Shown: positions 15,147 through 22,121 of the stretch, in pieces
Layout of the letters: each line of letters begins with the position of its first letter
Position numbering within the stretch: the stretch's first letter is position 1
DNA from: Novosphingobium sp.
GTDB taxonomy: Bacteria > Pseudomonadota > Alphaproteobacteria > Sphingomonadales > Sphingomonadaceae
Direction: 5' to 3'
DNA length: 37,101 nucleotides
NCBI GenBank assembly: GCA_031285165.1
Contig: JAITWR010000102.1
Coordinates: 1-37,101 of the forward strand
Notes under the pieces: generated by a model
What the model was told of the DNA's origin: nothing
Database searches by the model: none
The model's input: only the letters and a program-made list of their open reading frames with translations
Translations under genes and position numbers: made by a program

Positions 15147-15965
15147 CTATTTCCCCTTGCCGCCCACGCCTTTGAGGTATTCCTCCATGCCCTTGAGGTA
15201 GCTGGGATTGAGCATGAGGCCCGAATTGCCCATGCGCTCGATATGGCGGCCGGCGTCGCGGCCGACTTCGGCGCACAGTTCGATCGCCACTTTCGCCGCG
15301 CCCATCTGCTCGCCGTTCTGTTTGGCGAGGTGGCGGCAGAAGTCCATGACTTCGGCCTCGAACGTCTCGTCGGGGAACACCTGGTGGACCAGGCCCATGG
15401 TGAAAGCCATGTCGGCGCTGGCCTGCTTGTTAGCCATGACCAGCCAGCGCGCCCAGTGCGGGCCGCAGACGCGGGTGAGGCGGCTGACGCCGTTTGATGC
15501 CGGCAGCACGCCGAACAGCCCTTCGGGGAAAGCATAGCCCGCGCTTTTCGCGGCCAGGCGGAAATCGCAGGACAGGCTCATTTCCAGCCCGCCGCCGACG
15601 CACATGGCATGGTGGGCGATGACGAAGGGCTTTTCGATATGCTCCATCTCGTCCCACAACTGCTGCATGTTGTTGAGATTGAGACGGTGGTTCTCGCGGA
15701 TCGCCCGCGCGCTCTGCACCCCGCTCACCGACGGCGAGACGACGCGCTGGCCGCCGGCCTTGAGATCCGCGCCGGCGCTGAAATAGCGCCCGGTGGCGCG
15801 GATCAGCATGACCTTGAGCGCGTCGCTGTCGCGAAAGTGCAGCACTGCCTCGGTCAAGAGGTCCATCATCTGCCGCGATATGGCGTTGAGTTTTTCGGGC
15901 CGGTTCAGCGTGGCGATCAGGATGCCGTCGCTTTCCTCGGTCAGCAGGTGGGGGGCATCGGACAT
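15147..15965 (-). CDS. Enoyl-CoA hydratase/isomerase (crotonase) family protein
   Basis: LNRPEKLNAISRQMMDLL, RYFSAGADLKAGG, HHAMCVGGGLEMSLSCDFRLAAKSAGYAFPEGLFGVLPASNG. Confidence 0.92.
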   Translation of the reverse strand: MSDAPHLLTEESDGILIATLNRPEKLNAISRQMMDLLTEAVLHFRDSDALKVMLIRATGRYFSAGADLKAGGQRVVSPSVSGVQSARAIRENHRLNLNNMQQLWDEMEHIEKPFVIAHHAMCVGGGLEMSLSCDFRLAAKSAGYAFPEGLFGVLPASNGVSRLTRVCGPHWARWLVMANKQASADMAFTMGLVHQVFPDETFEAEVMDFCRHLAKQNGEQMGAAKVAIELCAEVGRDAGRHIERMGNSGLMLNPSYLKGMEEYLKGVGGKGK

Positions 15966-16034
15966 TTGCATACTCCCATGAATTTTCCGTCGTCTGTCAT
16001 GCGCGGCCATAAGGCCCCGGTGAGCCGCCGCTCC

Positions 16035-18239
16035 CTAGGCGCGGGTGCGGGGGAGCCCCAGGCCTTTTTCAGCGATCATGCTGCGGTGGACTTCGCTGGA
16101 GCCGCCGTAGATCGTCGTGCCGTGGGCGTGGCGATAGTCCTGGTTGATCGCGCCGGCCGGCCCCTTGCGCTTCGACAGCGACCAGGGGGCGGTGAGATCC
16201 AGCAGGTCGCGCGAATCGGTGGTGAACCTTTCGGACGAGAACATCTTGGTCATCGGGCCGTAGGCGTGGTTCGCCTTCTTTTCCACCTGCGCCCAGTTGG
16301 CGCGGTATTGCAGCAGTTCGGCGGCGAGGTAGTTGGCGTAACTGCGCGCGAGGCGGCCCTGCGCGTTGGCCTGGTCGATCAGCCTGGCGCCGCCCGGCAC
16401 GGGGATCTGCCGGCACAGTTCCACCGCTTCCTCCAGCATCACCCGTTGCACTTTGGCGAAGCCGCCGCCGTGTTCCAGTTCGAGGCTGGCCGCCATCGTC
16501 CGGGCGCCGCCGTCGACTTCGCCCAGCCGCCAGGAATCGGGGATCTTCACCCCGTCGTAGAAAGTGATGTTGGTGCGCTCGTCCATGAAAGTATGGACCG
16601 CCTGCACTGTCACTCCCTCGGCTTTCAGCGGCACGATGAACATGGTCAGGCCCTTGTGTTTGGGCGCTTCGGGATTGGTTCGCGTCAGCATCAGGACATA
16701 GTCGGTCAGGTTGGCGCCGCTGGTCCACATCTTGGTGCCTTCGATCTTCCAGCCGTTCCCGTCAGGGATCGCGCGGCACTGCGCGGCGAAAACGTCCGAG
16801 CCGCTGCCCGGCTCCGAATAGCCGAGCGAGCAGATGGCATCGCCCGACATGACCCTGGCCAGCACGTCCTGCTTCAGTTCCTCGGTGCCGAAGCGGTGCA
16901 TGATCAGCGCTACCATCTGCGCGACGCTGGCCACCGGGTTGTTCCAGCCTTCTTCCTCGAAAGCATCGCGCGCGGCGGTGACGGCATAGGGGCTGAGGCC
17001 GCGGCCACCGACATCCCTGGGCAGTTGCAGATAGGCGAGATTCGCCTCGACCAGCTTCTTGTGGATGCGCGGGTTGTGGCCTTCCCACGAATAGTGGAAC
17101 TTCGCCCGTTCCTCGTCGGTCACGTTTTTGGCGAAGAATTCGTGGATTTCCTTCTGCACCTGGCGCGCTTCCTCGCCCAGGTCGAATTCGATCGGCACGG
17201 CGCCGGCATCGGGCAGGCTGGTGGTTTCGCCCGCATAGAGGCGGCGGCCGGCTTCGGCGAGAAGCTGCTCGGGATCGCCCAGCACCAGCGGCCAGGCTTT
17301 CGCGCGCAGGTTGTAGAGGTGGATGTCGTGCTCGATGGTAAGGCCGATGCCGCCGAAAGTGTGGACCGCTTGGGTGACGGTGCGCGCGGCGGCCTGCGCC
17401 GTCCACCAGCCGGCCAGCGAGACTTGCGCGGCGGCCTCCGCCTCGCCGTCGGCGATCGAGCGGATCGCTTTCCAGACGAGCAGCTTGCCACTGTCGATCT
17501 CGCAGATGAGATCGGCCATCGGGTGCGAGATGGCCTGGAACGTGCCGATCAGCACGCCGAACGCCTTGCGCTCACCGGCATAGGCGGCGGCCATTTTCAG
17601 CGCCTCGCGCGACAGGCCCGAAAGCGCGGCGCTGATCAGCAGCTTCCATTCCTCGATGCCCGCGGCGAAAGTAGCCAGCGCGGCATCGCCGCTGCCGAGG
17701 ACAGTGGCCGGCAGGCCGGCAAGGTCGATTTCGGCGATCGGCGTGGACGCCAGGTTGTCTTCGGCCACGCGCGCCTCGGCCGGCACGGTGACGAGCACCA
17801 CGTCGCTGCCCCGGCGTGCCACTACCACCTCGGCGACGAGCCCGCCGGCAACCCACTGGCGCGGCAGATCGGCAATGTCGCGCATGGCGATGGTGGCCAC
17901 CGTTTCACCGGCGATGACCCGGCCGAGCAGGTCTTCCGCGCCGCCCAGTTGCGCCAGCAGCCGCGCGGCGACGAGCGCTTCGGCCATGGGGCCGGATGCC
18001 AGCGTGCGGCCGGCTTCTTCCAGCACGATGGCGGCGTCGAACAGGCCGAGGCCAAGCCCGCCGGCCGCTTCCGGCACGCGCAGGGCGAAAGCGCCCAGTT
18101 CGGCCAGGCCGCGCCACAGCGCCGGGTCGAAACCGCTCGGCAGGGCCGCGCGCACGCGCGCGCTCGACGAATTTTCATCGAGGAAACGCGCGAAAGTGTC
18201 GCGGACCATTTCCTGTTCTTCGGTCAGGTCGAAATTCAT
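16035..18239 (-). CDS. Two-domain (fused) acyl-CoA dehydrogenase
   Basis: Start MNFDLTEEQEMVRDTFARFLDE at 18239; N-half ends HTFGGIGLTIEHDIHLYNLRAKAW, then a second ACAD with LGYSEPGSGSDVFA, EGTKMWTSGA, YGGSSEVHRSMIAEKGLGLPR. Confidence 0.9.
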   Translation of the reverse strand: MNFDLTEEQEMVRDTFARFLDENSSSARVRAALPSGFDPALWRGLAELGAFALRVPEAAGGLGLGLFDAAIVLEEAGRTLASGPMAEALVAARLLAQLGGAEDLLGRVIAGETVATIAMRDIADLPRQWVAGGLVAEVVVARRGSDVVLVTVPAEARVAEDNLASTPIAEIDLAGLPATVLGSGDAALATFAAGIEEWKLLISAALSGLSREALKMAAAYAGERKAFGVLIGTFQAISHPMADLICEIDSGKLLVWKAIRSIADGEAEAAAQVSLAGWWTAQAAARTVTQAVHTFGGIGLTIEHDIHLYNLRAKAWPLVLGDPEQLLAEAGRRLYAGETTSLPDAGAVPIEFDLGEEARQVQKEIHEFFAKNVTDEERAKFHYSWEGHNPRIHKKLVEANLAYLQLPRDVGGRGLSPYAVTAARDAFEEEGWNNPVASVAQMVALIMHRFGTEELKQDVLARVMSGDAICSLGYSEPGSGSDVFAAQCRAIPDGNGWKIEGTKMWTSGANLTDYVLMLTRTNPEAPKHKGLTMFIVPLKAEGVTVQAVHTFMDERTNITFYDGVKIPDSWRLGEVDGGARTMAASLELEHGGGFAKVQRVMLEEAVELCRQIPVPGGARLIDQANAQGRLARSYANYLAAELLQYRANWAQVEKKANHAYGPMTKMFSSERFTTDSRDLLDLTAPWSLSKRKGPAGAINQDYRHAHGTTIYGGSSEVHRSMIAEKGLGLPRTRA

Positions 18240-18353
18240 GGGTTTCCTCTCTCCCGCAATAAAGACCGGCGGCCCGGCGCGAAAATCCGCAACAGCACGG
18301 AATGGCCGCCGGCGGCAACGGGAATCTCGCACCATCGCCGCGGCGATCGGGCA

Positions 18354-18390
18354 ATAAAAAGGCGGCGCCTCCCCAGGGGGAGACGCCGCC
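18354..18390 (-). terminator. Rho-independent terminator downstream of the TonB-dependent receptor gene
   Basis: Minus strand: GGCGGCGTCTCCCCCTGGGGAGGCGCCGCC followed by TTTTTATT. Confidence 0.85.
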
Positions 18391-18422
18391 AGGTGCGGAA
18401 AAAGCCCGTGTGGCGCCCGGCC

Positions 18423-21029
18423 TTACTGGCCGAACTTGTAGCGCAGGCGGAAACCCCACATGCGCGGTTCGCCGACGATCGACGAGATAAAGCCGCGCGC
18501 GGTGTTGTCGTTGATTTGCTGGATGACTTTCTCGTTGGTCACGTTGGTCATGAAGAACGATGCGTCGATCGGCATCTGCGCGACGTTTTCCCAGTTGACG
18601 GAAAGGTTCAGCACGCTGGACGAAGGCGCAATGCCGCCGCCCGATCCCGGCACGCTGTCGGCAACGATGCGCCGGCGCGACTGGTAAACGAACGTGCCGC
18701 CCAGGCTGATCCTGCCGACCGAGGGATCGAGCGGCAGGGTGTAATTCGCCGAAGCGACCACCTGATGCGGCGGCCCGGAATTGGGCAGCGTATCGCACTG
18801 TTCGCCCGAGCAGCCTTTCGACAGCGGCGCCGTGATATCGTTGTACGGCCCCGGCACCACCGGGATGGTTACTTTCAGCAGCCGCGCATGGATATAGCCA
18901 TAGGACAGGTCGAGCCGCATTCCCTCGAAAGGCGAGACGTTCAGGTCCGCCTCGATGCCCCAGATCCGCGACTTGCCGGCATTGATGATCGTGGCGTTGC
19001 CGGTGCAGATGATGAAGTCGGTCTGGCCGGGAGGAAGCGGCTTGTTCTGATTGCAGGCGACGCCCAGTTGCAACTGCTGGTTACGCAAATTGTTGTAATA
19101 ACCAGCAATATTGAAGCTGCCCGGTATGGAGCCGCGCCAGCTCGTCTTGGCGCCGACTTCGAACGTATCGACCGTTTCCTTGTCATAGGGCTGGAGCGGG
19201 TCGGGACCGTAAACGGCGAGGCCGCCCTGGCGGTAGCCGCGCGACCATTTGCCATAGAGCATGACATTGTCGACCGGCTTGTAATCCGCCTGCAACAGCC
19301 AGGTCGGCGCCCGGGTGTTCTTGTGCAGGTTCTGCCGGCAGTCGGTCAGGGCGTCGGTGAGGCTGAGATAGGTCGCATAGTTTGCAGGATTGGGGGCACC
19401 GTTGTAGCCGGGAGCCTTGGGGTTTGTGCAGGCGAACCGGACATTGCTGGGCACCAGCGTGAACACCGGCGTCAGGTTGATCAGGTCCGTATTCATCTTG
19501 TCCCAGGTGTAGCGGATGCCGCCGGTCAGCGTCAGTTGCTCGGTCAGCTTGTAGCTGGCCTGGGCATAGAGCGCATAGTCGCGGAACCGGGACTGTTGCA
19601 GCGAGTAGGCGCCGGTGCCGCCGGAAATGGTCAGCGCGTTGTAAAGGGGGTTTCCAGACGGTACGAAGGAGGGGCCGCCGAGCACGGCCGCAGGCAGGCA
19701 GTTGAATACCAGGACATCGGTGCAGGCGGTGAACGATGCGGTCTGCACGCCCGACCAGCCCAGCGGATCGTTCAGCTCGGCATAGCCGCCGGCCTGCCAG
19801 GTGAAGCGGCCGTCACCCGGATGGCCCTGGAATTGCAGCTCTGCGACGAAAGAGCTTTGGGCGTTGGTATAGCCGGCCATGCCGTTGTTGTGGGTAAAGG
19901 CGAAGCCGCGAACGTCACGGCTCGTTTCATTGCCGAAAGTCACGCCCGGCAGCAGGGCATAGTTGCCGAACAGGTCGAGGTTGGTCTTGCCGCGCATTTC
20001 CCCGTAGGACAGGATGTTCTTGACCGTCAGGCTGTCGCTGGCGGTCCAGGTCAGCGTATTGATCACTTGCCAGGTTTCGGCGATCGACTGGGAATCGGGC
20101 ACGCGGTTCGATACCGACCAGAACCCATAGGGCGCTTCGCGCACCATCTGCGCCACCGATTCGTTGCCGAAAGCTGCCTGGTTGGAATTTCCGGGGAAGG
20201 CCGCGGTGATCTTCGGGATCATGCCGTTGCTTTGCGAATGGGTGTAGGAGAATATCGTGTAATTTTCCAGATTGGGCGTCAGTTCGCCAAGCATGCTGAG
20301 GCGCGCGGCCCAGTAGTTGACATCGCCCATGTCGCGGCCGTCGAATTTGCCGTCGCCGAGATTGCCGACATTCTTGAGATAGCCGTGGCGATCCTGATGA
20401 TCGACGCCGGCACGGATGCGGAACGTATCGGACAGCGGCACGTTGATCACGGCCTGTGCGCGCCACATATCGTAATTGCCAGCGCTGCCCTCGACATAGC
20501 CTTCAAGCTTGTCTGTCGGCTTTTTGGGGACCAGCAGCACCGCGCCGCCAGTGACGTTGCGGCCGAACAGCGTGCCTTGCGGCCCTTTCAGCACCTGCAC
20601 GTTCTGCAAATCGAACATCGCGCCCGGACCGGCGCCATCGCCGCCGAAAGTCGCGCCGCTGCCGCGCGGGGCAACGACATCGGCGAAGAACACGCCCACC
20701 GTCGCGAAGCTGCGCTGTTCCTGATAGAAGCCGCGGATGGTGAACGTGGTGTTGTCCGCGCCGTAACGGTTGTTGACTGCGAAGCCGGGCGTGAAGGAGG
20801 CGATGTCCTTCAGGTTCGAGATATTGTTGTTGGCCAGCTTGTTCTGGTCGAGCACGGTGATCGAGATCGGCACGTCTTGCAGGCGCTGCTCGATGCGCTG
20901 CGCGGTCACGACGATGTCATTGGCGGAGGTGTCCCCCCCCCCCCCCGTATCCTGCGCCCAGGCGGGCAGAGCGTTGCAGGCGGTGAGTATGGTTGCAGCG
21001 GCGAGCGCCGCTTTCCTGGTAATGGCCAT
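18423..21029 (-). CDS. TonB-dependent receptor
   Basis: Start MAITRKAALAAATILTACNALPAWAQ; DIVVTAQRIEQRLQDVPISITVLD (plug domain); C-terminal FFMTNVTNEKVIQQINDNTARGFISSIVGEPRMWGFRLRYKFGQ. Confidence 0.95.
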   Translation of the reverse strand: MAITRKAALAAATILTACNALPAWAQDTGGGGDTSANDIVVTAQRIEQRLQDVPISITVLDQNKLANNNISNLKDIASFTPGFAVNNRYGADNTTFTIRGFYQEQRSFATVGVFFADVVAPRGSGATFGGDGAGPGAMFDLQNVQVLKGPQGTLFGRNVTGGAVLLVPKKPTDKLEGYVEGSAGNYDMWRAQAVINVPLSDTFRIRAGVDHQDRHGYLKNVGNLGDGKFDGRDMGDVNYWAARLSMLGELTPNLENYTIFSYTHSQSNGMIPKITAAFPGNSNQAAFGNESVAQMVREAPYGFWSVSNRVPDSQSIAETWQVINTLTWTASDSLTVKNILSYGEMRGKTNLDLFGNYALLPGVTFGNETSRDVRGFAFTHNNGMAGYTNAQSSFVAELQFQGHPGDGRFTWQAGGYAELNDPLGWSGVQTASFTACTDVLVFNCLPAAVLGGPSFVPSGNPLYNALTISGGTGAYSLQQSRFRDYALYAQASYKLTEQLTLTGGIRYTWDKMNTDLINLTPVFTLVPSNVRFACTNPKAPGYNGAPNPANYATYLSLTDALTDCRQNLHKNTRAPTWLLQADYKPVDNVMLYGKWSRGYRQGGLAVYGPDPLQPYDKETVDTFEVGAKTSWRGSIPGSFNIAGYYNNLRNQQLQLGVACNQNKPLPPGQTDFIICTGNATIINAGKSRIWGIEADLNVSPFEGMRLDLSYGYIHARLLKVTIPVVPGPYNDITAPLSKGCSGEQCDTLPNSGPPHQVVASANYTLPLDPSVGRISLGGTFVYQSRRRIVADSVPGSGGGIAPSSSVLNLSVNWENVAQMPIDASFFMTNVTNEKVIQQINDNTARGFISSIVGEPRMWGFRLRYKFGQ
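20933..20946 (-). repeat. G14 homopolymer (C14 on + strand) inside the TonB-dependent receptor CDS
   Basis: Coding strand gat ac[G14]ac acc tcc gcc = D-T-G-G-G-G-D-T-S-A. Confidence 0.95.
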
Positions 21030-21311
21030 GATATTTCCCCTGATGAAGCGGACGGTGCCTCTATAGCCTTGAACGGAATAATCCATGAGCCCGCCCTGCT
21101 TACGCGACGGGTGCGGGATGGCCATGCCCATTCCCGCGGCGGGCGATGAAATTTCCGGCAGCGTTGCCGAGATGCAACGCATTCCGCAGGATATGAGAAA
21201 CAGTGTCTCTTTACTCCCGGCCCGGAGGGTGATTGTCCGCCCGTATCGTGGCGATCAGTGTCTCGGGGCAGCGGCGGCAAATGCGCTGAAAGCGCGTTTC
21301 GCAACGGTCTT

Positions 21312-22121
21312 TCAGGCCGCGTTGGAAAGCCGTTCCACCGTGGCGGTGAGCGTTTCGCCGGGGGCGAAGCATTGTTCGACTGCCTCGCCGATGCAGTGCA
21401 GCAGGCTTTCGCGGTTGACCCTGTCCTCCTGGCCGTAAACGAGGCCGACTGCCATCGGGTGCGGCTCGTCCTGACCCGGCAGCAGGACCGCCAGCACTTC
21501 CGCCGTCGCGCCGAAGCCGGCCTTGCCGTGGACATGGCCCCGATCCTGGCAGGCCTGCACCCGCGCGGCCATTTCCGCCAGGGCGAACTTGCGGCTCTCG
21601 CTCGCTTCGGCGTTGAGCCGGCGCAGGATGCCGTCGCGGCGCGGCTGGGCGATGGTGGAAAGCAGCAGCCAGCCCGCGGCGCTGTCGGTCAGCGGCTCCT
21701 GCAATCCGCCGAACAGGCCGCAGGTCGCCTGTGCCGCGGCGCGGGAGCCGGCGTGCCAGCTTACGATCTGCGCTTTCAGTTCGACGCGGCCGAACAGCGC
21801 CACCGAAAGGCCGGTCTGCGCGACCAGCCGGTCGATCAGCCCGACCAGCCTGCCGTCGCGGATCGCGCTGGTTTGCCCGGCGGTGCCGAGCAGCGCCGCG
21901 CGCGGCGCCAGGCTGTAGGAGCGTGAATAGGGATCCTTGTAGAGCAGGCCCAGCTCGACCAGGCTCGACAGCAGTTCGGACGTGCTCGACTGCGGCCGAT
22001 TATAGCGGCGCACGATATCCATCACCGTCGCTTCGCGATGCGTGTCGTCGAAATATTCGAGAACCTCGATAACGCGACGGGCGATCTTCGCCTTGTTCGA
22101 CGGGGCCGATGCGGCAGGCAT
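21312..22121 (-). CDS. IclR family transcriptional regulator
   Basis: ARRVIEVLEYFDDTHREATVMDIVRRYNRPQSSTSELLSSLVELGLLYKDPYSRSYSLAPRAALLG winged HTH. Confidence 0.8.
   Translation of the reverse strand: MPAASAPSNKAKIARRVIEVLEYFDDTHREATVMDIVRRYNRPQSSTSELLSSLVELGLLYKDPYSRSYSLAPRAALLGTAGQTSAIRDGRLVGLIDRLVAQTGLSVALFGRVELKAQIVSWHAGSRAAAQATCGLFGGLQEPLTDSAAGWLLLSTIAQPRRDGILRRLNAEASESRKFALAEMAARVQACQDRGHVHGKAGFGATAEVLAVLLPGQDEPHPMAVGLVYGQEDRVNRESLLHCIGEAVEQCFAPGETLTATVERLSNAA

Follow-up and report, generated by a model that had tools for sequence, protein, structure and literature searches.

A 14-nt G tract in the linker of a Novosphingobium TonB-dependent receptor gene as a candidate phase-variation site

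Phase-variable tracts and the Novosphingobium locus

Runs of at least 8 G are variable in length in other bacteria (PMC5320596, PMC6321876). The closest described systems are the haemoglobin receptors HmbR and HpuA(B) of Neisseria, in which TonB-dependent uptake is turned ON or OFF by the length, modulo 3, of an in-frame poly-G tract; in Neisseria meningitidis the reported tract lengths are 8-15 for hmbR and 4 to about 19 for hpuA, both ranges including 14 (PMC3786947, PMC3352162). In the phasomes of Helicobacter canadensis and Campylobacter, long G tracts stand where coding regions begin (5′ end) or close to promoters, and frameshifts there truncate the product (PMC2823697, PMC6321876). Campylobacter tracts lie mostly in reading frames (PMC6321876), and length variation was seen in reads of H. 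canadensis (PMC2823697). For an alphaproteobacterial surface protein, BadA of Bartonella henselae, slipped-strand mispairing was also proposed (PMC8859334). In a limited full-text search of open-access papers, neither Novosphingobium nor Sphingomonas yielded a described case.

Here we analyse a G14 tract in a TonB-dependent receptor gene from a Novosphingobium genome (2.59 Mb, 208 contigs, 84% complete). The window, a stretch of 37,101 nts, makes up contig 31 of this genome in its entirety. A first-pass annotation had proposed the tract as a candidate phase-variation switch of the type known from Neisseria. The likeness to hmbR and hpuA lies in the TonB-dependent uptake, the in-frame poly-G and a reading frame depending on length modulo 3. 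However, Neisserial lengths vary between isolates and are tied to phenotype, whereas the present case consists of one sequence and of relatives devoid of a tract. HmbR and HpuA are moreover haem-uptake loci, whereas the Novosphingobium receptor resides in an acyl-CoA catabolic cluster; membership of the Neisserial group is not claimed. BadA differs in kind: it involves long domain repeats and recombination and is not a TonB-dependent receptor, in contrast to the mononucleotide tract considered here.

The receptor gene and its tract

The features expected of a TonB-dependent receptor, namely plug, beta-barrel, signal peptide and TonB box, are all present in the predicted product (Table 1). Both domains scored above cut-off (PF07715, E=4.9e-14; PF00593, E=9.1e-35) and profile matches were to siderophore and colicin receptors in the PDB. 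The start codon ATG (21029-21027) has AGGGGA a few nt upstream. A sigma-70 scan around the receptor start gave no sites. An AlphaFold model built from only 8 sequences had a mean pLDDT of 46.5 and was uninformative for the N-terminus. A 1846-aa open frame on the + strand (15609-21149) was rejected as a gene: it lies opposite the receptor gene and the acyl-CoA dehydrogenase gene and is typical of the antisense frames of high-GC DNA.

The receptor cluster comprises acyl-CoA dehydrogenase, enoyl-CoA hydratase, IclR regulator, amidohydrolase, CoA-transferase and AMP-ligase genes, and the same gene order is found around the best ortholog, in Novosphingobium sp. JCM 18896 (G177). The acyl-CoA dehydrogenase-type gene, 87 nt downstream on the same strand, is likely co-transcribed with the receptor. 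Since the receptor lies inside an acyl-CoA catabolic cluster whose gene order is kept in JCM 18896, it probably imports an organic substrate.

Table 1. Coordinates of the receptor locus in the window and of further G/C tracts in the source genome (C, contig)
Feature	Position	Strand	Remarks
TonB-dependent receptor, 868 aa	18423..21029	-	Plug PF07715 + TonB_dep_Rec_b-barrel PF00593
Predicted signal peptide MAITRKAALAAATILTACNALPAWA	20955..21029	-	AxA-type cleavage before QDT, predicted from the sequence by eye
G14 homopolymer	20933..20946	-	from the third base of ACG (Thr28) through four GGG (Gly29-32) to the first base of GAC (Asp33)
TonB box DIVVTA	20901..20918	-	NDI[IV]VTAQR in all aligned orthologs, read by eye
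Putative Shine-Dalgarno-like AGGGGAAA	21034..21041	-	upstream of ATG
IclR-type regulator	21312..22121	-	upstream of receptor
Acyl-CoA dehydrogenase-type protein	16035..18335	-	87 nt downstream of receptor, same strand
Enoyl-CoA hydratase/isomerase	15147..16010	-	next in same-strand gene set
G15	C62:14419-14433		inside LuxR-type regulator
C13	C126:14001-14013		28 nt upstream of ATG of OMP_b-brl (PF13505) gene
C10	C8:2246-2255		about 20 codons before 3′ end of glycosyltransferase-like ORF
C10	C70		intergenic
Two runs of 11	C138		one near contig end

On the + strand the tract reads as C14, that is G14 in the coding strand of the minus-strand receptor gene, exactly as the first-pass annotation had it; the length of 14 is the assembly consensus in a genome of 208 contigs. 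In the coding strand its context is GCG CAG GAT AC[G GGG GGG GGG GGG G]AC ACC (tract in brackets). The corresponding protein, PAWA-QDTGGGGDTSAN-DIVVTA, places the signal peptide first, then a linker of 11-12 residues holding Gly4, then the TonB box. The tract was thus located, as had been claimed, directly after the predicted signal peptide, in a variable linker ahead of the conserved TonB box. Covering codons 28-33 of 868, it lies towards the 5′ end of the gene and exceeds the 8-9 minimum for a G/C repeat.

We computed the reading frame for tract lengths of 8 to 20. It is open at 14 G and at lengths differing by 3. Loss of one G yields a 40-aa product ending in DTGGGGTPPPMTSS and gain of one G a 37-aa product ending in DTGGGGGHLRQ, each with its stop shortly past the signal peptide, in agreement with the truncation at about 37-40 aa that had been announced for either slip. 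The anatomy of the locus accordingly matches the design expected of translational phase variation by slippage.

No second G/C run of at least 8 occurs elsewhere in the 37-kb window, and none of 100 dinucleotide-preserving shuffles produced a run of 14. Glycine is encoded in the receptor CDS by GGC 76 times, against 10 GGG (4 of them inside the tract), 6 GGA and 6 GGT, so that the asserted preference for GGC holds in this gene. When residues 21-40 were resampled synonymously with local codon use, a run of 14 arose in 1 of 20,000 trials. The tract is far longer than codon choice or composition would allow, and its earlier description as unexplained by codon usage stands.

The receptor linker in relatives

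The comparison set, drawn from the same GTDB genus, includes Novosphingobium malaysiense, N. indicum, N. album and others. In five orthologs detected at the DNA level (G177, G128, G108, G159 and G133; 72-79% identity over the receptor gene, the nearest at about 79%) the linker contained no G run and was written in mixed codons throughout. The sequence of a further ortholog (G122) breaks off before the tract position. Similarly, orthologs recognised at the protein level (56-77% identity) and read at this position had mixed codons and no run. The tract was also absent from a MAG fragment (L211) whose N-terminal part is 83% identical at the protein level. Syntenic orthologs, such as the one in the JCM 18896 cluster, are among those that lack it.

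We then searched for runs of at least 9 G lying no more than 30 nt ahead of a TonB-box motif, a pattern blind to unusual TonB boxes and to other codons. With the narrow motif (I-V-V-T-A) only the source genome matched among 196 genomes of the genus, and with the wider one (I-[IV]-V-T-A) it was again the only match among 401 genomes of the order. As no ortholog read carries the tract and no match was found elsewhere in the 401 genomes, the tract is, by this comparison, private to the source genome. A conserved switch was not borne out: the tract is missing in all relatives read at the site, where mixed-codon linkers are found instead. Of the proposed candidate switch, then, the frame logic, the position and the likeness to the Neisseria type hold, but conservation in relatives does not.

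The linker is the least conserved N-terminal part of the receptor, spanning 5 to about 17 residues in orthologs, and this variability in sequence and length indicates that insertion is tolerated there. Such freedom would also suit a fixed Gly4 linker, neutral or structural, that has no switching or regulatory effect. Support for such tolerance comes from other proteins. In relative G046 (C1, about 1695550) an OmpR-type response regulator has an in-frame G11 in its inter-domain linker, and in relative G045 (C1, about 388310) an in-frame C12 (Pro4) lies inside a DnaJ-like protein; such in-frame tracts in linkers of unrelated proteins suggest that a run can develop in places where the protein is able to accommodate it. 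However, with GGC strongly preferred, Gly4 does not need four GGG codons flanked by G on both sides, and tracts of G8 or longer vary in Neisseria (PMC5320596). We consider a fixed linker very improbable.

The absence of the run from relatives makes it look like a recent expansion that would render the gene switchable. In the account that we favour and hold to be probable, though far from certain, the tract is real and private to this lineage. A G run in the free linker would have grown past the length at which replication slippage expands it, leaving the receptor presumably ON at 14 G. From the known biology of G tracts we infer that slippage would be frequent and the switching reversible; about two thirds of the resulting lengths would truncate the product after the signal peptide, so that the receptor could in effect flip OFF and back. 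The acyl-CoA genes behind the receptor would perhaps be switched too, through polarity.

G/C tracts in the source genome and the genus

The genome holds 27 G/C runs of at least 8 nt: 11 of 8 nt, 4 of 9, 2 of 10 and the rest of 11-22. Counts thus drop from 11 to 4 to 2 and are then flat up to 22, a profile that fits slippage expansion past about 10. The long runs situated away from contig ends are the receptor G14 and those given for other contigs in Table 1, one of the two in C138 being the exception. A MutS defect as the cause of tract expansion was ruled out, since mutS is intact (an open frame of 892 codons), a point that tells against the favoured account.

A second in-gene tract, the G15 of the LuxR-type regulator, puts the N-terminal 239 aa of that protein out of frame with its GerE HTH (DNA-binding) part. 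The closest homologue in JCM 18896 is one continuous ORF without a tract, and the two parts retain 51% and 60% identity to it, which indicates that the frame break is recent. The out-of-frame G15 is consistent with what slippage would leave; the break may be an OFF state reached by slippage, a pseudogene of recent origin or an assembly error of one base.

This last possibility applies to the receptor tract as well: its run could exist with a wrong length, or be poly-G produced by short-read chemistry or by low coverage at G-rich DNA. The assembly is a fragmented draft in which five contigs (C35, C93, C115, C181 and C208) have G/C runs of 11-22 nt no further than about 100 nt from their ends, among them several of the longest (22, 15, 14, 13 and 12 nt). 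This suggests that contigs were interrupted at G runs, and a miscount of one base could likewise explain the LuxR frame break. The receptor tract, however, is more than 16 kb from either contig end; the sequence to its left and right is unique, and a single intact frame runs through it that agrees with orthologs before and after the tract. Relatives whose genomes are finished or nearly so (G173, G005 and G183) also have long runs in the interior of long contigs. An artefact is, accordingly, improbable in our estimation.

The C13 close upstream of the OMP gene recalls the poly-C promoter tract of Neisseria fetA (PMC5320596). Unlike in fetA, no promoter was recognised by a sigma-70 scan around this tract, and the window's receptor gene carries its own run within coding sequence. 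The C13 was missing in those OMP homologues whose upstream sequence was read. The C10 in the glycosyltransferase-like ORF is a possible site of C-terminal frame variation, to judge by its location.

In a sample of 150 genomes from the genus, tracts of at least 11 nt are missing in 51 and few in most others, against 10 in the source genome. Outliers were G171 with 68 and G011 with 41 G/C tracts of at least 11, several of the latter in clustered intergenic arrays. About 90 tract loci taken from relatives were mostly intergenic, and several of their ‘in-gene’ tracts were antisense shadows typical of high-GC DNA. The genus differs here from H. canadensis and Campylobacter, which have tens of tracts. 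Under a uniform ORF rule, which passes over the LuxR gene with its broken frame and includes some antisense frames, internal tracts fell inside genes in 2 of 5 cases in the source genome and 11 of 81 in relatives (p = 0.16); in-gene enrichment is therefore not established.

These observations bear on whether the locus is a selected contingency locus, in which stochastic ON/OFF switching pays, for example against phages or toxins that exploit the receptor or against the cost of an unused transporter, within a small switchable set composed of the receptor, the LuxR gene (G15), the OMP gene (C13) and the glycosyltransferase (C10). The 5′ site in a surface-protein gene, the length over 9 and the frame effects are those of strong candidates in H. 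canadensis (PMC2823697); the gene classes are typical of phasomes, and one gene is ON and one OFF in the assembly. Against this stand the lack of a tract in any relative examined, the mostly intergenic location of tracts in the genus with the in-gene comparison given above, and the OMP tract at which no promoter was recognised. Selection for switching at this locus appears rather unlikely. That the four genes form a small phasome driven by G/C-tract slippage, switching stochastically with the receptor ON at G14 and LuxR OFF at G15, also strikes us as unlikely; it would be a case of mononucleotide-tract phase variation in a free-living alphaproteobacterium. Our preferred reading of the receptor tract is that it expanded recently by slippage in a free linker, apparently switchable in principle and not demonstrably selected.

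If the receptor does switch, slippage-driven phase variation of TonB-dependent receptors would extend from mucosal pathogens to an environmental alphaproteobacterium. It would then affect the uptake of a carbon substrate rather than immune evasion, with phage avoidance or nutrient bet-hedging as the likely driver. If there is no switching, the case shows that an unconstrained linker can take on the look of a contingency locus through neutral slippage, which would call for caution in genome scans.
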